From: Candidatus Micrarchaeota archaeon | GTDB lineage: Archaea; Micrarchaeota; Micrarchaeia; Micrarchaeales; Micrarchaeaceae | Length of the DNA stretch: 64,000 nucleotides | Reading direction: 5' to 3' | Assembly (NCBI GenBank): GCA_028866575.1 | Contig: JAGWHU010000002.1 | Location: forward strand, 62,001 to 126,000 | Shown: positions 40,979-48,531 of the stretch, one piece after another | Layout of the letters: every line of letters begins with the position of its first letter | Position numbering within the stretch: position 1 is the first letter of the stretch | Made by a program: the position numbers and the translations under genes | The notes under the pieces: model-generated | Told to the model about the DNA's origin: nothing | Seen by the model: only the letters and a program-made list of their open reading frames with translations | Databases searched by the model: none

Positions 40979-41095
40979 CCTGTCATACCAACGCCATGAC
41001 GAGGCGTCAAAACTAAGCATTATCTTTCGATGACAAACTAAGCGAAATAATCCAATTTCGCCCGAAGCACAGGATGCGCATCAGATACATCTCCT
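40972..41095 (+). repeat. Island repeat R1 (long form)
   Basis: This copy has the full layout: a ~85-bp flank (40972-41057) shared with R6 and R7, the tRNA-Asn 3'-end decamer GCCCGAAGCA (41060-41069), and a 3' tail ACAGGATGCGCATCAG shared with R2-R4. The flank has hairpin ACGCC/GGCGT (40991-41007) with loop ATGACGA, and outer blocks TGTCAT (40981-40986) and ATGACA (41030-41035) that are fully complementary. CTAAGC occurs twice (41012 and 41038). Confidence 0.85.
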
Positions 41096-41125
41096 AAAAG
41101 GAGGTTTTAAGAGCATTTTTGTATA

Positions 41126-42916
41126 ATGTTATTCAAATCGGTTGCTATGAACAGGTTGATATTTGTTGTAGTTGCTGCTATTGTCATAGGAGTTGTGGCC
41201 ACGTACTATCTGCTGGCTGGATTTTCTGGGCATGGAATTCAGCCTCAATCAAACACGACAGTACAAAACTCTGGAGTCAACAACTCGGCCAATAATTCGG
41301 TTGTAAATGCAGCACTCACAGATTGCGCAAAGGCAGGCATATCTGCATCACAATGCCAACGCTATTGCGAAAGCAATCCAAGTGCATGTGGACTCGCAAA
41401 TCCGAATAACAATGCATCAAACCAGTCAGGCAGCCCGCATAACCAGAGCACCCAAAACAATCAGAGTAAATCCCAAAAGGTCTATGTTGGCAAATCTGTG
41501 ACATTCCTTGGACAATTCACTATTAAATTATTGATGATCAACAACTCTCAGGCCGTTCTTAATGTCAGTCAGGGCCAATACTCTAGAGTTGTTCAAATGG
41601 GTCAGTACCAGTATGTGGGTTTCGGTCAGTCAGGCAATGGGCCCTACCTTTTCACATATCAGGTAAATGGCACAGGCCAAAACGGCTGGGTATCCCTTAA
41701 CATGACAAACATCCTGCCCAGTGGATTCAGCCAAGCGCAGAGCGTGCTCGGTAACCAATCCGGCTCAACCGCCCAGTACCAGAACAATTACACCACAAAC
41801 CAGTCACAGTCCAATTACACTGCAAATGGCGGTATAGCATCAAGCCTGATGGCATGCCAAAACCAGACCTACCTTACAGCGTTGCCCGCAAACCTCTCAT
41901 CCATTTCATCCTTATCGCCCATTGGCAATCTTAATCCTCCCGGACACGTCATTCCGTCAGACCATGGGAGCATAAATCTTGTATCCGCAAGCACGCTCCA
42001 GGCCACGGTGTATGCTCCGGGAAACGTTCATATTCTACAGATAGTCTACCAGAACTCAACGCAAGCTGGCAAACACTTTAGCGATTATGGAGTATATTTT
42101 TCGCCATGCAAGCAGCTTGTATTCTATTACGGGCACCTGGATGAGCTTTCTGGTGCACTGCAGCAGCAAATCAGCAATGCAAGCAAGAACGCGTCCTGCC
42201 AAAGCTTCCAAGAGCCAGGCCTAGCATCCAAAACGTGCACATATCATTTCGACTACATGGCAAAGGCAGGGGAAGTTCTAGGTGCCGCCGGAGGGCCAAA
42301 CAGCAACATTAAGGGTTTTGATTTTGGAGGCTATGATCTGCGTACGTCAACCCAGGCATTCATAGACCAGGCCAGGCAGGTCAATAATTTTGGGAGGCCA
42401 TTGAATGCGATATGCCCTGTTAATTATTACACAGGAGCCTTGTACACCGAGCTCTACTCCATAATGAACAATACTGCAAAAGGTTCAAATGGTTACCCAT
42501 CATGCGGCACTGACATGGAGGATATTGCGGGCACCATACAGGGCAACTGGTATCTGAACGGCAGTGCAGCAACTGGTCCGGCAAACTCGAGCCAGCAGAT
42601 GGCCATAGTCCATTATTACGAGAACCCAGCCATAGGCGTTGTCTCCATTGGTGGAGTCGTAGCTCAAGCAAGCCTTAACTACTTCACACCAACCAGCAGC
42701 GGTTACATAAACAGAGAACCATCGCAGGTGACCGCGGACGGACACATATACTGCTACTACCAGAATAATGACAATACGCCATATGGGGCGTCCCCTCTCA
42801 CCGGTTACTTCCTTGTCCAGTTAGTTAATACAAACACTCTAAAGATAGAATACCAGAATGGAGCATGTCCGCAGACCCCATCTTCGTTTAGCAACCCAAC
42901 AATATACGTGCGATAA
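41126..42916 (+). CDS. Large secreted or anchored protein, Ser/Asn/Gln-rich
   Basis: A 596-aa protein with one N-terminal transmembrane helix (residues ~10-31), a ~90-residue low-complexity linker rich in Asn, Ser and Gln, and a large ectodomain with eight or more cysteines, probably disulfide-bonded. No named domain is recognised. It may start at ATG 41126 or 41147. The gene fills the segment between repeats R1 and R2. Its composition is less GC-rich than the chromosomal genes. A surface adhesin or binding protein is possible but unproven. Confidence 0.72.
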   Translation: MLFKSVAMNRLIFVVVAAIVIGVVATYYLLAGFSGHGIQPQSNTTVQNSGVNNSANNSVVNAALTDCAKAGISASQCQRYCESNPSACGLANPNNNASNQSGSPHNQSTQNNQSKSQKVYVGKSVTFLGQFTIKLLMINNSQAVLNVSQGQYSRVVQMGQYQYVGFGQSGNGPYLFTYQVNGTGQNGWVSLNMTNILPSGFSQAQSVLGNQSGSTAQYQNNYTTNQSQSNYTANGGIASSLMACQNQTYLTALPANLSSISSLSPIGNLNPPGHVIPSDHGSINLVSASTLQATVYAPGNVHILQIVYQNSTQAGKHFSDYGVYFSPCKQLVFYYGHLDELSGALQQQISNASKNASCQSFQEPGLASKTCTYHFDYMAKAGEVLGAAGGPNSNIKGFDFGGYDLRTSTQAFIDQARQVNNFGRPLNAICPVNYYTGALYTELYSIMNNTAKGSNGYPSCGTDMEDIAGTIQGNWYLNGSAATGPANSSQQMAIVHYYENPAIGVVSIGGVVAQASLNYFTPTSSGYINREPSQVTADGHIYCYYQNNDNTPYGASPLTGYFLVQLVNTNTLKIEYQNGACPQTPSSFSNPTIYVR

Positions 42917-42924
42917 AAGGACTT

Positions 42925-42978
42925 CTTGAAGCACAAAGCCCGAAGCACAGGATGCGCGTCAGGCACATCCCCGACAAA
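42925..42978 (+). repeat. Island repeat R2 (short form)
   Basis: CTTGAA, a short variable spacer, AGCCCGAAGCA, then CAGGATGCGCGTCAGGCACA and TCCCCGACAAA. The reverse strand can fold as GGATGTG-CCTGACG-CGCATCC. It is nearly identical to R3 and R4. Confidence 0.88.
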
Positions 42979-43053
42979 ATTATATAAATAAGATCTTACA
43001 GAATAGTATTTGGTGGTTATACGATAAGCTCTGACAAGGATCTTATTGCAAAA

Positions 43054-43455
43054 GTGCAGATCAAAGTTAATGCACCTATAGCGAAGGTTTGGGATGCCCT
43101 GATTGACCCAAGGGCAATCAAGCAATATATGCTCGGTGCCGATGCAGTATCAGAATGGAAGGAGGGGAGCCCTATCGTATGGAGAGGGGAATGGAACGGC
43201 AAAAAATACGAAGATAAAGGAAAAATACTAAAGCTGGCTCCTGAGCGCCTCATTAGATACAGTCACTTTAGTCCGCTGGCCGGATTACCCGACGCACCTG
43301 AAAATTACCACATAGTCACTGTAGAATTAGCCAGCAAAGGCACACATACATTGGTGTCTCTATCCCAAACAAACAACCCTACACAAGAGGCTCTGCAGCA
43401 TAATGAGCAGGGGTGGAAAATGATGCTGGACGGGCTTAAAAAATATCTTGAATAG
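43054..43455 (+). CDS. SRPBCC/AHSA1-like ligand-binding protein
   Basis: The 133-aa protein has the helix-grip fold sequence of activator of Hsp90 ATPase homolog 1-like proteins: IKVNAPIAKVWDALIDPRAIKQY at the N terminus, GEWNGKKYEDKGKILKLAPE in the middle and WKMMLDGLKKYLE at the end. Such proteins bind hydrophobic ligands in a cavity. It begins with GTG at 43054, about 65 bp after a TATA-like ATATAAATAA (42981-42990). It fills the 540-bp unit between repeats R2 and R3. Confidence 0.8.
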   Translation: MQIKVNAPIAKVWDALIDPRAIKQYMLGADAVSEWKEGSPIVWRGEWNGKKYEDKGKILKLAPERLIRYSHFSPLAGLPDAPENYHIVTVELASKGTHTLVSLSQTNNPTQEALQHNEQGWKMMLDGLKKYLE

Positions 43456-43462
43456 AGCAGAA

Positions 43463-43516
43463 CTTGAATGCCATAGCCCGAAGCACAAGATGTGCGTCAG
43501 GCACATCCCCGACAAA
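43463..43516 (+). repeat. Island repeat R3 (short form)
   Basis: CTTGAATGCCATAGCCCGAA, then GCACAAGATGTGCGTCAGGC and ACATCCCCGAC. Compared with R2, AGGATGCG has become AAGATGTG, which keeps the stem GATGTG-CCTGACG-CACATC on the other strand fully paired (a G-U pair becomes A-U). Confidence 0.88.
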
Positions 43517-43622
43517 GAACTTTAAAGAATGGGTCTTAATTGATGTAGATCACATACTTTTATTTAAATTATTTAAGCATATAAGGAACGTACAGGGCAG
43601 GTTAGGATACCAATAGATTAGC

Positions 43623-44159
43623 ATGGTCCAATTTATGGCTAAAAGCAAGCAGATGGTTTTTACTATAGGCCACTCAACGCGTAAGCTTAGCGAGTTCGTG
43701 AGGTTGCTTGATGCATATAAGATAAAGGAATTGGTAGATATACGCACCATACCAAAGTCAAGGGCCAATCCGCAGTTCAATGAGAAACGACTCGCCTATG
43801 GCCTGAAGAGGCACCGCATACGCTACAGACATATAAAAGGCCTAGGGGGTCTCAGACATCCATCGAAGAATTCAGTCAATACATATTGGCACAATGCGTC
43901 ATTCAGAGGCTTCGCAGACTATATGCAGACCAGGAAATTCAGGAAGAGCCTCATCGAACTTATAAGTCTAGCAAAGAAAAGGCAGACAGCCATAATGTGT
44001 GCAGAGGCAGTACCGTGGAGGTGCCATAGATCGCTGATAGCGGATGCGCTTCTGGTCAGGGGAGTAAATGTCAGGCATATATTTAGTCCAACAAATTCAA
44101 AACCACACGAGCTAACAAAAAGCGCAAGGGTGAACAGGCTGAATATAGTGTATAAATAA
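43623..44159 (+). CDS. DUF488 family protein
   Basis: The 178-aa protein matches DUF488: FTIGHSTRKLSEFVRLLDAY near residues 13-32, LVDIRTIPKSRANPQFN, and CAEAVPWRCHRSLIADAL near 126-143 with the conserved Cys and Arg/His. Function is not established. It shares the R3-R4 segment with a small membrane protein and a hemerythrin-like protein. Starts at ATG 43623 or 43635 are both possible. A second, different DUF488 (YeaO-like) protein is encoded at 63405-63830. Confidence 0.85.
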   Translation: MVQFMAKSKQMVFTIGHSTRKLSEFVRLLDAYKIKELVDIRTIPKSRANPQFNEKRLAYGLKRHRIRYRHIKGLGGLRHPSKNSVNTYWHNASFRGFADYMQTRKFRKSLIELISLAKKRQTAIMCAEAVPWRCHRSLIADALLVRGVNVRHIFSPTNSKPHELTKSARVNRLNIVYK

Positions 44160-44188
44160 CCGGTCTGCAAGAGATAATCGGTGCGTTT

Positions 44189-44605
44189 ATGGATAATGTT
44201 GCTGCAACGAGCAAGATGGTAAGGCTTTACATAGCTACGGGGTTCTTGTATTTCGTAATCGGTACGATACTTCTTGCCTTTAACTTGTCAGGCGCAGTTG
44301 CCGTAGATAGAGACCCGATATTCATACTATTATTGTATGGTTTTGTAACGCAGCTGATTTTTGGCGTATCATATATCTTTGTGCCTGGGGTTTCACGCCA
44401 TAGTGGCTCAAATTATAAGGTTATAGCCGCAGAATACGTCCTCTTAAATGCAGGGATAATTGCATTCGAGGGCGTTGCACTTGCAGGCAAGAAGGAAGTA
44501 GCAGTGATCCTGGGAGGGCTGATAACGATGATCGTGGCTGTTTTGTTGCATGCAGTCAACATATGGCACACGATAATCGGCAGGAAAAGCGGAAATACGA
44601 CATAG
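44189..44605 (+). CDS. Four-helix integral membrane protein
   Basis: A 138-aa protein with four hydrophobic helices (residues ~11-31, 43-64, 77-96, 104-126) and short loops. The first half, with a GFLYFVIGTILLAF helix and an FGVSYIFVPGVSRHSG segment containing a His, recalls small heme-copper-related membrane subunits, but I cannot assign it. It lies between DUF488 and the hemerythrin-like gene. Confidence 0.65.
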   Translation: MDNVAATSKMVRLYIATGFLYFVIGTILLAFNLSGAVAVDRDPIFILLLYGFVTQLIFGVSYIFVPGVSRHSGSNYKVIAAEYVLLNAGIIAFEGVALAGKKEVAVILGGLITMIVAVLLHAVNIWHTIIGRKSGNTT

Positions 44606-44613
44606 CATGATAA

Positions 44614-45177
44614 TTATACCATCCTTGATAGTGCCTCATTCTTTGCTTTATCATCGATATAATTATCTATCCACGGATACATGTCTTCTTCCTCCATCTT
44701 ATCATGTGCTGCTAGCAACTGCTCCAAGTCATTCTCAAGGGTTGTATCTCTGGCTTTTAAGCTATCAGCCAATCCCCTTAAATCATCTTTAATCCTGTTA
44801 TGCTGCACTATCAGTTCGTCTATTATCGGTGAATCGTCCCCCATCTTCTTCTTGGCAAGCGGGAATAGGATATCTTCCTCCCATTTTATATGACGATCAA
44901 TTCCTGCCCTAAATTCCAAAAAGAGTTGCTCTGCTTCTGCCGCTTTTTTCGATTTCCTGAACTCCTGGAAAATGTATTCAAGCCTTGAATGGTCTCTGGA
45001 CATGAATCCATATATGTCTTGCCCCTTCTTAGAGTAGGCGCCCTTTGCCTGCTTCCATACATCCCATGCGATGGCAAACTTTATTATCTGCGGTTCTGTG
45101 CCTTTTGTTGCTTCATCCAACGTAAGTTTGTACTTGGCTTTCATGTATTCCAAGAACTCTTTATCGTACTGTTCCAT
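44614..45177 (-). CDS. Hemerythrin-like (HHE) protein
   Basis: The 187-aa protein has the HHE cation-binding pattern: a His in SRDHSRLEYIFQEFR near residues 60-74, HIKWEEDILFPLAKK near 96-110, QHNRIKDDLRGLAD near 124-137, and AAHDKMEEEDMYPWID near 157-172. These residues bind a di-iron centre for oxygen or NO sensing or storage. The ATG at 45177 is preferred because the longer frame would run through repeat R4. It is convergent with the membrane protein gene. Confidence 0.85.
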   Translation of the reverse strand: MEQYDKEFLEYMKAKYKLTLDEATKGTEPQIIKFAIAWDVWKQAKGAYSKKGQDIYGFMSRDHSRLEYIFQEFRKSKKAAEAEQLFLEFRAGIDRHIKWEEDILFPLAKKKMGDDSPIIDELIVQHNRIKDDLRGLADSLKARDTTLENDLEQLLAAHDKMEEEDMYPWIDNYIDDKAKNEALSRMV

Positions 45178-45268
45178 ACAGTATAAGTTGTCTTTTAAGC
45201 AATTTAAGCGTTGCGGGATGCAACGTATACTGCAAATTCCTATTGGACTATTGAGCGCTGTGGTTGAC

Positions 45269-45322
45269 CTTGAAGTGTATAGCCCGAAGCACAAGATGTG
45301 CGTCAGGCACATCCCCGACAAG
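45269..45322 (+). repeat. Island repeat R4 (short form)
   Basis: CTTGAAGTGTATAGCCCGAA, then GCACAAGATGTGCGTCAGGC and ACATCCCCGACAAGG. It is the same as R3 over the core and lies between the divergent hemerythrin-like and RibD-like genes. Confidence 0.88.
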
Positions 45323-45372
45323 GAAACTTAATAAATAACCAAGTTTAAATAACTTAAATAAAAGTTGATAAC

Positions 45373-45966
45373 ATGAGAAAAATAATCGTCATAACAATGA
45401 TTACGCTAGATGGGGTAATGCAAGCCCCCGGCGGACCAGAGGAAGACACATCAAGCGGTTTCAAATATGGTGGGTGGACAGCACCGTTTTCGAATGACAA
45501 CGGGAGCGATTTCTTCCAAAAAAATATGCAGCCTGCAGAATATCTATTAGGTAGAAAAACATTCGAGATTTTTGCCAGCTACTGGCCACAGCACAAAGAC
45601 ATCTGGCCCGGCATAAACGATGGCATGAAGTACGTTCTGAGCAACACTCTGGAAAAGTCAGATTGGGGGAACACCGCATTCCTCAAAAATTTGACAGATA
45701 TAAAGAAACTTAAAGATTCAAACGGTTCTGACCTTCATGTTTGGGGCAGCGGCAAGCTCATACAGCTACTAATGAAGAATGATTTAGTTGATGAGTTCAG
45801 ATTAGTAACATATCCGTTGACGCTTGGTCAAGGGCAAAAGTTATTTGCAGAGGGCACAATTCCGGTCACATTCAAACTAACAGAGAGTACGGCCACGCCA
45901 AGCGGCGTTGTTATGGCGAACTACAAGCGAGCTGGGGAAGTTAAGACAGGAACTGTTGGTGAGTAG
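45373..45966 (+). CDS. RibD C-terminal / dihydrofolate-reductase-like protein
   Basis: The 197-aa protein has the reductase fold seen in RibD C-terminal and YyaP/YwjB-type proteins: IITMITLDGVMQAPGG-like N terminus (here IVITMITLDGVMQAPGG), LLGRKTFEIFASYWP near 58-72, YVLSNTLEKSDWGN, HVWGSGKLIQLLMKNDLVDE near 122-141, and YPLTLGQGQKLF. These use NADPH to reduce small heterocycles; the substrate is unknown. It is alone in the R4-R5 segment. Confidence 0.85.
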   Translation: MRKIIVITMITLDGVMQAPGGPEEDTSSGFKYGGWTAPFSNDNGSDFFQKNMQPAEYLLGRKTFEIFASYWPQHKDIWPGINDGMKYVLSNTLEKSDWGNTAFLKNLTDIKKLKDSNGSDLHVWGSGKLIQLLMKNDLVDEFRLVTYPLTLGQGQKLFAEGTIPVTFKLTESTATPSGVVMANYKRAGEVKTGTVGE

Positions 45967-46011
45967 TCTGTTCACCAAAATAGCAAATTACTTCTAGTGT
46001 CAAGAACCCTA

Positions 46012-46041
46012 CGCCCGAAGCAGGCAACAGGATGAGAAGTC
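46012..46041 (+). repeat. Island repeat R5
   Basis: CGCCCGAAGCAGGCAACAGG followed by ATGAGAAGTCC, the same as the 3' part of R6 (47222-47252). The long flank is not present here. It marks the left end of the second 1.2-kb duplicated unit. Confidence 0.85.
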
Positions 46042-46121
46042 CCACGCCCGGTGTTTTTTCTAGGCATAGATTTCACTTTTAGCATTACTATGTTAACTTA
46101 TATAAAATGGTTTGTAAATTT

Positions 46122-46397
46122 CTACACCCTTAGCGCTATTTTATGATTATTCTTCTTTGATTCTCTACCAAATATTTTATGCGGTATCCCAAGTCTTTCA
46201 AGCTCCTTGACTTGAAAACCCCAAACAATGGAAACGTGTTCACCGTCTATATAAGCTCCTTGTCGAACACCACCTATTTCTGACATTGCCTCTTTCCCCT
46301 CTATTCTAGCCTTCCTATTGGGAAATGTCAACATGTACGTATTTTCATCTTTTATTTGAGATCCATTTTGTTCAAGTTTTGCTTTTTCCTTAGTCAT
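46122..46397 (-). CDS. Small partner protein of duplicated module, copy 2
   Basis: A 91-aa protein, homologous to the product of 47297-47590. Shared positions include LEQNGSQIKDENTYMLTFP against IEQNEMQVEDRKTYAITFP, a following R-K-x-R-I-x-G, a central Gly-x-Tyr, then QVKELERLGIP against QVKVLDKLGIP, and a C-terminal Ala-Leu-Arg. No named domain is recognised. It always follows the larger gene on the same strand and precedes a repeat. A partner or regulator of the larger protein is likely. Confidence 0.7.
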   Translation of the reverse strand: MTKEKAKLEQNGSQIKDENTYMLTFPNRKARIEGKEAMSEIGGVRQGAYIDGEHVSIVWGFQVKELERLGIPHKIFGRESKKNNHKIALRV

Positions 46398-46439
46398 AAA
46401 ATCCCTTATTTTATCTTATATATAGAATTCAAGGTTATT

Positions 46440-47051
46440 TTAATTTTGCTTTTTTCTCAAATTTCTTATTTCCCTTAATAATGGTTTAACATCAGGTGAA
46501 ATGCCTGGTACGATTGTAATTTCACTCTGTTCGATTACTATTATCTTCTCTTTCGAATGCTCTTCTAATATTCGCCTTAATTTTTTGAAATATTCCATAG
46601 CATTATTATGTCGGAGAGTATAAACTTCATAACGTGCATGTTTATTTACAATTGTTTTCTTTTTCTTATTTATCCATGCACCTCTTATTGTAGGTGATGT
46701 AAGTATATGCGGTACTCCAATGGGCGTTTCAGGTAAAAACGGTAAGAATTCTTTTGGAATGCTCTTTAATTCTTCTCTTGAATATTTTGCTTTATATCTA
46801 AAATTTGTGTAACCACCTAAATGTTTTCCAAAATGTACTTCAAGCGTGTCCAGATCTGCACTTGTAAAAATTGATTTTTCTACGGGAAAAGGTTTTCTAG
46901 GTATCTTCTTCTCTTCGCTTATGGGTAATAAAAGGGTAAACTTGAAATGATAACCTTCCAATACTGGTTTAAAGACACCGGTGTAAGATGTTCTAAATAC
47001 TGCTAATTTCCTGCCTAGTAACTTTTCTTTATTTACATCTTTCGTGCTCAT
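46440..47051 (-). CDS. Larger protein of duplicated two-gene module, copy 2
   Basis: A 203-aa basic protein, homologous to the product of 47651-48283 over its full length. Conserved blocks include LEGYHFKFTLLLPISEEK, a PHILTSPTIRGAW stretch, VNKHARYEVYTLRH, and the C-terminal KEKIIVIEQSEITIVPGIS. The C terminus is a basic coiled-coil-like helix. I recognise no family. The gene is strongly AT-rich. The promoter and repeat R6 lie upstream. Confidence 0.72.
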   Translation of the reverse strand: MSTKDVNKEKLLGRKLAVFRTSYTGVFKPVLEGYHFKFTLLLPISEEKKIPRKPFPVEKSIFTSADLDTLEVHFGKHLGGYTNFRYKAKYSREELKSIPKEFLPFLPETPIGVPHILTSPTIRGAWINKKKKTIVNKHARYEVYTLRHNNAMEYFKKLRRILEEHSKEKIIVIEQSEITIVPGISPDVKPLLREIRNLRKKQN

Positions 47052-47134
47052 TTTATCACAAAATTATACTGTTTATAAGATATAATAATGTTTCAGAAAG
47101 ATGGAATTTTAGATGTGTATTTTTGATTTTAAGG

Positions 47135-47252
47135 CACCTAACCTGCCATACTAACGCCCTTACAAGGCGTACAGACTAAGCATTCTCTTTAGACGACAAG
47201 CTAAGCAAAATAAGCAAATTTCGCCCGAAGCAGGCAACAGGATGAGAAGTCC
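47135..47252 (+). repeat. Island repeat R6 (long form)
   Basis: The flank runs from CACCTAACC (47135) through hairpin ACGCC/GGCGT with loop CTTACAA (47154-47170), then CTAAGC twice, and ends with the tRNA-tail CGCCCGAAGCAG (47222-47233) and GCAACAGGATGAGAAGTCC as in R5. A GCCC-TTTTGTTTT-GGGC hairpin follows at 47256-47272, which may end transcription of the neighbouring gene. Confidence 0.87.
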
Positions 47253-47296
47253 TTCGCCCTTTTGTTTTGGGCATAGTTACACCAATAATATTGAAT

Positions 47297-47590
47297 TTAC
47301 CTTCTTAATGCAACAGATTTACTGTTTCCATTTGATTTTCTTTTGAAGAATTCCCAAGGTATCCCTAATTTATCAAGAACTTTGACCTGGTAGCCTTTGG
47401 CTACTGTTACATCTTGGCCATCATCCGACATGCTTGATGATGTACCTGGATATATTCCCATAAGTATATAGTTTCCATCTATTCTAGATTTGCGTGTAGG
47501 AAATGTTATTGCATAGGTTTTACGGTCTTCTACTTGCATTTCATTTTGTTCTATTTTTTTGACTTTACTTCTTGTAAGCTTTTCAGACAT
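47297..47590 (-). CDS. Small partner protein of duplicated module, copy 1
   Basis: A 97-aa protein homologous to the product of 46122-46397 (see that entry for matching positions). It contains KTYAITFPTRKSRIDGNY near residues 25-42 and KGYQVKVLDKLGIPWEFFKR near 66-85. It follows the larger module gene by 60 bp on the same strand. The ATG at 47590 was chosen over a GTG three codons upstream. Function unknown. Confidence 0.7.
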   Translation of the reverse strand: MSEKLTRSKVKKIEQNEMQVEDRKTYAITFPTRKSRIDGNYILMGIYPGTSSSMSDDGQDVTVAKGYQVKVLDKLGIPWEFFKRKSNGNSKSVALRR

Positions 47591-47650
47591 CAATATCACA
47601 TATTAATTGTGTTTGTTTGAATATAAATATGTTACGGCAATTATAATTTG

Positions 47651-48283
47651 TCACATAGATTTTATCTTTTGCTTTAACCTTTTGTTATCATTTTTCAATT
47701 TCTCAACTTTTCTTAAGAGGTTTCTAGTTTCTGATGAAATGCTTGGAAGTATAGTAACTTCTGACTGTTCGATTAGAATTACTTTTTCTTTTGAGTATTT
47801 CTCTAGTATCTCTTTTAGATCCTTGAAATATTCAACAGCTTTATCATGTCTTTGGGTATAAATATGATATTGAGCATGCTCATTAACAATAGGTCTTCTA
47901 TTTTCGTCTACCCAAGAACCTTTTAGTGTAGGTGAAGTTAATATATGTGGCGATACTCCAGGTAATGGCATTTCAGGAAGTATATATTTTGGTATGTTTC
48001 CTATTTCGCGCTTTGTATATGTTATGTCGTATCTAAATTGGGTGACACCTTTGAATTGACTAATGAAAAGTTTCCTGAGTGCATCTAAATCAGTCTTTCC
48101 GAAGATTATCTGTTGTATGGGGTATTTTCCCTTTGTTACTTTTTCTTCGCTTATTGGAAGAAATATACTAAATTTGTAGTGATATCCCTCAAGCGTCGGC
48201 TTGAAGAATTCTAAATGTTTATCATACGTTCTCAGTTGCTTCAAGCTCTTGCTAAGTGGTTCTTCTTTAGTTATACCTTTCAT
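47651..48283 (-). CDS. Larger protein of duplicated two-gene module, copy 1
   Basis: A 210-aa basic protein, homolog of the product of 46440-47051. It has LEGYHYKFSIFLPISEEK, then PHILTSPTLKGSW, VNEHAQYHIYTQRHDKAVEY and KEKVILIEQSEVTILPSIS, ending in a Lys-rich helix. I do not recognise a family. It lies next to the tRNA-Asn gene with its promoter just inside the flank of R7. Its own DNA is strongly AT-rich. Confidence 0.72.
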   Translation of the reverse strand: MKGITKEEPLSKSLKQLRTYDKHLEFFKPTLEGYHYKFSIFLPISEEKVTKGKYPIQQIIFGKTDLDALRKLFISQFKGVTQFRYDITYTKREIGNIPKYILPEMPLPGVSPHILTSPTLKGSWVDENRRPIVNEHAQYHIYTQRHDKAVEYFKDLKEILEKYSKEKVILIEQSEVTILPSISSETRNLLRKVEKLKNDNKRLKQKIKSM

Positions 48284-48366
48284 TTTATCGCATAATTATA
48301 CCGCCAAGGAAATATAATAATGTTTCAGAAAGATGGAATTTTCGGAAGTATATTTTGATTTTAGGA

Positions 48367-48466
48367 CACATAACCTGACATATTAACGCCCAACCAAGGC
48401 GTACAAATCAAGCATTCTCTTCCGACGACAAGTTAAGCAAAATAAGCCATTTTCGCCCGAAGCAGG
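48367..48466 (+). repeat. Island repeat R7 (long form, contiguous with tRNA-Asn)
   Basis: The flank CACATAACC (48367) through hairpin ACGCC/GGCGT with loop CAACCAA and the CTAAGC-like pair (TCAAGC, GTTAAGC) ends in CGCCCGAAGCAGG, which here is the real 3' end of tRNA-Asn (48454-48466). R1 and R6 share this flank, so they are displaced copies of the tRNA downstream region. Confidence 0.9.
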
Positions 48467-48525
48467 GATCGAACCTGCAACCTATTGGTTAACAGCCAAT
48501 CGCTCTACCATTGAGCTATTCGGGC
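48454..48525 (-). tRNA. tRNA-Asn (GUU)
   Basis: Acceptor GCCCGAA/TTCGGGC, D arm GCTC/GAGC, anticodon stem ATTGG/CCAAT with loop CTGTTAA, and T arm GCAGG-TTCGATC-CCTGC form a clean 72-nt cloverleaf. The discriminator is G, no CCA is encoded, and there is no intron. Its 3' end (GCCCGAAGCA on the plus strand) is repeated six more times across the island to the left. Confidence 0.96.
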
Positions 48526-48531
48526 ATATCC

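Follow-up and report, generated by a model that had tools for sequence, protein, structure and literature searches.

The window analysed here is a stretch of 64,000 nucleotides, positions 62001-126000 of contig C2 (JAGWHU010000002.1), from a Candidatus Micrarchaeota archaeon whose genome comprises 1.13 Mb in 53 contigs. Positions are given in window numbering; other genomes are designated G, contigs C and loci L. At 46013-48454, beside a tRNA-Asn gene, lie two adjacent cassettes of 1.2 kb, each with a pair of genes termed p1 and p2. The cassette anatomy, with borders that are copies of the tRNA 3' end, is well supported, and from this anatomy we infer that the cassettes are mobile.

The cassettes beside tRNA-Asn

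The features of the locus are as follows.

48453-48526, minus strand: tRNA-Asn (gtt), the attachment target; its final 13-16 nt, CCTGCTTCGGGCG(AAA), are repeated at the unit borders
47223-48454, minus strand: cassette 1, tRNA-proximal, 1232 bp; order from the tRNA outward p1, p2
48353-48454, no strand: end block on the tRNA side of cassette 1; contains GACGACAA at 48424-48431 and an inverted repeat, ACGCC..GGCGT
48284-48342, minus strand: upstream (promoter) block of p1 in cassette 1; 86% identity with 47052-47110 of cassette 2
47651-48283, minus strand: p1 of cassette 1, 210 aa; ferredoxin-like predicted model
47297-47590, minus strand: p2 of cassette 1; 97 aa if read from ATG, 100 aa if read from a GTG upstream of it; ferredoxin-like predicted model
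47223-47268, no strand: distal end block of cassette 1, a tRNA 3'-end copy plus GGCAACAGGATGAGAAGTCC; the same block occurs at C3:2876
46013-47222, minus strand: cassette 2, 1210 bp, with a related p1, p2 pair
47121-47222, no strand: end block on the tRNA side of cassette 2; 86% identity with that of cassette 1; GACGACAA at 47192-47199
46440-47051, minus strand: p1 of cassette 2, 203 aa; 78% identity with a copy on C1 (L015 4774-5385)
46122-46397, minus strand: p2 of cassette 2, 91 aa, an open reading frame
46013-46058, no strand: distal end block of cassette 2, a tRNA 3'-end copy plus GGCAACAGGATGAGAAGTCC

Repeats were located in the window sequence at 46012, 47222 and 48454, and comparison of these gave spacings of exactly 1210 and 1232 bp, the values approximated in an initial annotation of this DNA. 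The four minus-strand genes in the same order in both units and the neighbouring tRNA-Asn were also as described there. At each border stands the 10-mer GCCCGAAGCA, which is the tRNA 3' end in reverse complement. Seven copies occur in the window against 0.26 expected, a number reached in none of 100 shuffles, and 13 of the 14 copies in the genome lie within three arrays, on C1, C2 and C3.

The two units have common blocks of 47 nt on the left (87% identity) and of 63 and 114 nt on the right (both 86%), the latter being the promoter and terminal sequences whose relatedness had been noted earlier. Within the genes DNA identity is mostly 50-70%, with 48% protein identity for p1 and 43% for p2; all the conserved blocks previously listed (LEGYH, PHILTSPT, EQSE, QVK and LGIP) were found.

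In G001, a genome of the same genus, an identical tRNA-Asn is flanked by the same right-hand neighbours, and no further tRNA-end copy was found in its contig; the left neighbourhood is wholly different, making this an unoccupied comparator and not a base-exact empty site. A second tRNA-Asn with the same anticodon, on C5 (L079 14541-14616), encodes CCA, which the window copy does not.

tRNA-end borders at other loci

The p1-p2 cassettes at other loci usually measure 1.0-1.7 kb (smallest 963 bp) and are typically bordered by a tRNA, or a tRNA-end copy, on one side and a second tRNA-end copy on the other. The arrangement expected of an integrative element, an intact tRNA with a copy of its 3' end at the far border, was found at the window (13-16 nt), in G028, G178 and G247, and on C4. 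The G028 cassette consists of 1.45 kb between tRNA-Lys and a 53-nt exact 3'-end copy, and its content is the pair and a p2 remnant. In G178, 963 bp separate tRNA-Leu from a 26-nt 3'-end copy; in G247 the cassette is 1.09 kb with a 12-nt tRNA-end copy. On C4 the borders of a 1025-bp cassette are tRNA-Thr end copies (11-15 nt), and between it and tRNA-Thr stands, in tandem, a 12.6-kb integrase and type I restriction element (L078, C4:41305-53886) with genes for a 435-aa integrase, HsdM, HsdS, HsdR, a D12-class adenine methylase, a DndB-like protein and an OLD-like ATPase. A 1165-bp cassette on C13 is bounded by AGCCCCAGGAGG and has a tRNA-like fragment at one side, and the C1 cassette (110627-112337) contains a cytidine deaminase gene in addition to p1-p2. 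The mobile-looking character recorded in the initial annotation is supported, and cassettes are repeatedly anchored at tRNA 3' ends.

The same ends also enclose other cargo. At C3:2876-4005 (L018) a Fic-family gene and a glyoxalase-like gene are enclosed by the left block of the p1-p2 cassettes and by a right block that resembles theirs. Since the ends recur around different cargo, it is the ends that would be recognised, and the recombinase probably acts in trans, supplying cassette mobility from elsewhere.

41060-46012, no strand: four further array intervals, with GCCCGAAGCA borders at 41060, 42938, 43476, 45282 and 46013

In this leftward continuation of the array the cargo is unrelated accessory genes, for a surface-type protein of 596 aa; an AHSA1-like protein; DUF488 with hemerythrin and a small protein; and a RibD_C protein. 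A third copy of the tRNA-side end block (75%) ends at the 41060 border. The intervals between 41060 and 46013 start with a different repeat type, GCCCGAAGCACAAGATGTGCGTCAGGCACATCCCCGACAAGG, which appears capable of forming a hairpin (GCACA..TGTGC).

Two similar intervals were seen apart from the pair. On C5 a 0.8-kb single-gene interval (L079 13624-14425) lies between tRNA-Asp and an imperfect 3'-end copy; its gene encodes a 142-aa protein with no Pfam family, and a 414-aa integrase gene is adjacent. In G028 a cytidine-deaminase-like gene lies between tRNA-Pro and a tRNA-end-like fragment (L019 2873-3639).

Distribution of the gene pair

Profile searching detected p1 in eight of 301 Micrarchaeota genomes, and p2 adjoins it at all 13 p1 loci. 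Co-occurrence of the pair, a survey of which the initial annotation had proposed, was seen in the relatives found, which are repeatedly anchored at tRNA 3' ends. The genes form a linked two-gene operon, as in toxin-antitoxin systems; in G028 the two share a 4-nt overlap. Several genomes have an almost identical promoter-like block around TTAAATATTTCCTATG, and on this sequence evidence the operon is predicted to have its own promoter. At tRNA-Lys in G028 and tRNA-Gly in G234 the p1 proteins are near-identical (63/76 residues).

At three of the 13 loci p1 is broken or shortened (G242 C6, G234 and G028 C5). On G242 C9, p2 stands beside a small integrase with no p1 detected, and in G180 it lies at a contig end and is cut off by it. 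Multiplied p2 genes were seen in G242 C6 (two copies), G234 (up to three) and G028 C14 (a second-copy remnant). Directly upstream of the broken p1 in G242 is an IS110-family transposase gene (L074 3349-4329).

A first scan of contigs with the two window proteins as queries gave no relatives; with a deeper alignment as query four loci were obtained, in contigs named Candidatus Micrarchaeaceae or Micrarchaeota archaea. Neither of two scans of viral contigs gave a p1-p2 relative. A match in G034 was rejected as false, being by eye an Orc1/Cdc6-like protein, and further weak p2 matches (E 0.0006-0.05) were treated as chance. No description of such cassettes in Micrarchaeota was found in the literature searched, in which subscription papers were mostly out of reach.

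Divergence and selection

The p1 of cassette 2 is 78% identical to p1 of the C1 cassette against 48% for its neighbour in cassette 1, and synonymous divergence between the two window units is saturated. For these reasons the units are not a recent duplication. Of the duplicated unit described in the initial annotation, two homologous adjacent units therefore stand, but a recent local tandem duplication is ruled out. The units are better seen as separate arrivals (related insertions) of members of one family, or else as an ancient pair.

Between cassette 2 and the C1 copy the ratio of nonsynonymous to synonymous substitution rates (dN/dS) is 0.10 for p1 and 0.06 for p2. Both genes are under purifying selection and thus encode proteins that matter.

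Candidate recombinase

Five tyrosine-recombinase matches were found in the genome, none inside the cassettes, which unlike autonomous elements have no integrase of their own. One small integrase lies in an element of 3.06 kb at tRNA-Leu on C3 (L080 4797-7960), with a 33-nt tRNA-end (attachment, att) repeat and GACGACAA at both ends; its genes are the small integrase, which is frameshifted, and a weakly YoeB-like gene with its partner. Relatives of this integrase adjoin tRNA-Glu in G247 and G210, with GACGACAA at 11-12 bp from the tRNA. The same 11-12 bp spacing after the tRNA is shared by the small-integrase elements of three genomes and the p1-p2 cassette of G028.

With 20 att cores considered, seven of 17 hits to GACGACAA lie within 100 bp of a core against 0.37 expected (nominal P=4e-8, an optimistic value, as the motif was chosen after some sites had been viewed and several borders are copies of each other). 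The orientation of GACGACAA relative to the tRNA varies, as between the window and G028. At two G242 loci p2 abuts a small integrase gene. XerA was the best NCBIfam model for all six integrases tested, and a small XerA-like tyrosine integrase is most likely the best candidate for mobilising the cassettes.

Predicted structures of p1 and p2

In agreement with the initial annotation, neither protein matched a known family in searches of Pfam, NCBIfam, PHROGs, PADLOC and PDB sequences. AlphaFold models were built from six sequences and appear to have a beta-alpha-beta-beta-alpha-beta order, with a predicted local distance difference test (pLDDT) score of 70.8 for p1 and 69.1 for p2; with modest confidence both are predicted to be ferredoxin-like. 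With Z about 7, the best PDB matches of the p1 model were the DNA-binding domains of EBNA1 and LANA, a phage S-adenosylmethionine (SAM) lyase and PII-like proteins. The match to an EBNA1-type domain (Z 7.5, 114 residues aligned, root-mean-square deviation 4.8) is equalled in score by PII-like proteins and by the SAM lyase (Z 7.3, 104 aligned, root-mean-square deviation 3.2). For the p2 model Z was about 5. The p1 scores are at the level expected of a common fold, no listed family standing above unrelated rows. The profile searches and structure prediction that had been recommended thus placed neither protein in a housekeeping family.

Net charge is not conserved among p1 relatives (about -3 to +18), and their pI ranges from 6.0 to 10.0, so the basic character formerly attributed to the larger protein does not hold for the family. 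Polar residues (K, E, D, N, H and Y) occupy invariant or near-invariant positions across the p1 core.

Interpretation

The units are proposed to be non-autonomous integrative mini-elements of a Micrarchaeota family that targets tRNA 3' ends. A segment of ~1 to 1.7 kb would enter the tRNA 3' end by site-specific recombination, with the tRNA still intact afterwards and its 3' end duplicated at the far border; newer insertions would enter between the tRNA and older ones, building an array. Because the cassettes encode no recombinase, mobilisation in trans by a tyrosine integrase is most likely. The likely helper would be the small XerA-like integrase, whose own elements are found at tRNA-Leu and tRNA-Glu with GACGACAA next to the att core. 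This part of the proposal, cassettes mobilised in trans, we consider probable.

At the weakest step of the proposal, p1-p2 would retain the element in the cell as a toxin-antitoxin-like pair of which p1 can be lost and p2 is kept. A maintenance role is suggested by the operon, by the status of the pair as sole conserved cargo, by purifying selection, by toxin-like sister genes (Fic and weakly YoeB-like) and by p1-only loss, each of these arguments being weak alone. In every case of a broken or missing partner the gene affected is p1, while p2 persists (G242 C6, G242 C9, G234 and G028 C5), an asymmetry seen in four cases that may be due to chance, p1 being twice the length of p2. Given cassettes mobilised in trans, the chance of a maintenance role is about even. 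The pair may be a toxin-antitoxin, defence or maintenance system, as first suggested in the initial annotation. The explanation as a whole, non-autonomous tRNA-targeting mini-elements that carry a toxin-antitoxin-like maintenance pair, is offered tentatively, at somewhat below an even chance.

Besides the small number of p1 losses, several observations weigh against this explanation. Neither p1 nor p2 resembles a known toxin or antitoxin in Pfam, NCBIfam, PHROGs or PADLOC. This genome yielded a single small integrase, the frameshifted one on C3, and G246 has an intact p1-p2 with no tyrosine recombinase detected at 90% completeness. No excised circle and no excision or integration event was seen. 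At G210 and G234 a tRNA is present without a complete second tRNA-end copy, and the 14 nt that match tRNA-Pro in G028 all fall within the T-arm. A cross-locus control, in which tRNA ends were compared with the flanks of other loci, gave T-arm-type matches of up to 13 nt; repeats of 12-14 nt are therefore weak alone, and those of at least 15 nt strong.

The strongest competing explanation is that p1-p2 is recombination machinery that binds the element ends, as directionality or accessory factors or as a replacement for the integrase, so that an element without an integrase controls its own excision. The pair is the only conserved content of minimal elements and stands beside the att site, where larger elements hold integrase genes; p2 is of excisionase size and abuts the small integrase at the two G242 loci, and the EBNA1 and LANA DNA-binding domains are among the best matches of the p1 model. 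However, the C3 cassette has the same ends without p1-p2, so the pair is not needed in cis, and the near-identical p1 proteins at tRNA-Lys and tRNA-Gly indicate that p1 does not set the target, which disfavours p1 as a site-determining integrase. Net charge is not conserved, and the fold scores are background for a common fold. We regard this role as unlikely, though deserving of serious attention.

Less credible still, and in our judgement improbable, is enzymatic cargo for defence or counter-defence, for example a nucleotide- or SAM-processing ferredoxin-like enzyme of benefit to the host or the element. The conserved polar positions throughout the p1 core would suit an enzyme, the phage SAM lyase and PII-like proteins are among the best fold matches, and neighbouring elements hold type I restriction, DndB-like, Fic and weakly YoeB-like genes; the pair nevertheless has no match in PADLOC, Pfam or PHROGs, and its fold scores are at background.

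An ordinary local duplication in tandem, by which a chromosomal gene pair beside the tRNA was copied and the tRNA-like repeats are incidental, would account for the adjacency, shared orientation and homologous genes of the two units, but it is very improbable, as unit 2 is nearer to the C1 copy than to its neighbour, the repeats reappear at other tRNA genes with other tRNA ends, and p1 is present in so few of the genomes. Although tandem short cassettes, exchangeable accessory genes and a recurring border site recall an integron of the CALIN type (clusters of attC sites lacking integron integrases), that reading is ruled out, to all intents, on core sites and integrase type: no RYYYAAC/GTTRRRY core-site pair occurs at six of seven borders, the single pair (48455) is chance-like and is not conserved at the sister border 47223, the sites are tRNA 3' ends that differ with the target tRNA, and no TIGR02249 score exceeded 78.5 bits (cut-off 265), the XerA model fitting better.

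Micrarchaeota may have an integron-like system of their own, with arrays of short cassettes and exchangeable accessory genes at tRNA 3' ends, a small XerA-like integrase that acts in trans through GACGACAA-flanked sites, and p1-p2 as a mobilising or maintaining pair; this we hold possible but rather doubtful.

If the proposed mini-elements are real, they would be among the smallest gene-carrying integrative elements described, and an archaeon with a 1.1-Mb genome would have a way, independent of integrons, of collecting accessory genes singly at tRNA ends (cytidine deaminase, glyoxalase, Fic, hemerythrin and others). A cassette of ~1 kb, a tRNA-end att site and an integrase of roughly 300 aa would then form a simple test object for the spread of non-autonomous elements in archaea. 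The p1-p2 pair is a new, uncharacterised protein pair.

Comparison with known systems

An intact tRNA, a displaced 3'-end copy and tandem occupation of the site are likewise features of Islander-type islands (PMC4383910) and of thaumarchaeal cryptic integrated elements (PMC6563490). The smallest thaumarchaeal cryptic element reported is 2.6 kb, integrase included (PMC6563490). Unlike these tRNA-targeting islands, the cassettes described here have no integrase, measure 0.96-1.7 kb and have only two conserved genes.

Repeated use of tRNA genes as archaeal integration targets is also known from the tRNA-linked insertions and miniature inverted-repeat transposable elements (MITEs) of Sulfolobus islandicus, where trans-mobilisation of defective elements has been discussed for insertion sequences and MITEs; its tRNA insertions, however, are remnants of plasmids or fuselloviruses and not minimal two-gene cassettes (PMC3718332).

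Like the helper-dependent 'hitchers' (MITEs, CALINs and phage satellites; PMC11389934), the cassettes appear to depend on the recombinase of another element. MITEs have no genes and have terminal inverted repeats, CALINs have attC sites, and satellites are larger and use phage particles, whereas the borders here are direct copies of the target tRNA end. With two selected genes per cassette and direct border repeats, the cassettes are not MITEs. With integrons, including those of archaea (PMC9668308), they share an array of one- to three-gene cassettes and exchangeable accessory genes, but they differ in having no attC core sites, no integron-type integrase, a tRNA-gene anchor and a predicted p1 promoter of their own. 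The cassettes work like known helper-dependent integrative elements, yet fall outside the definitions of integrons, MITEs and autonomous islands that were tested.

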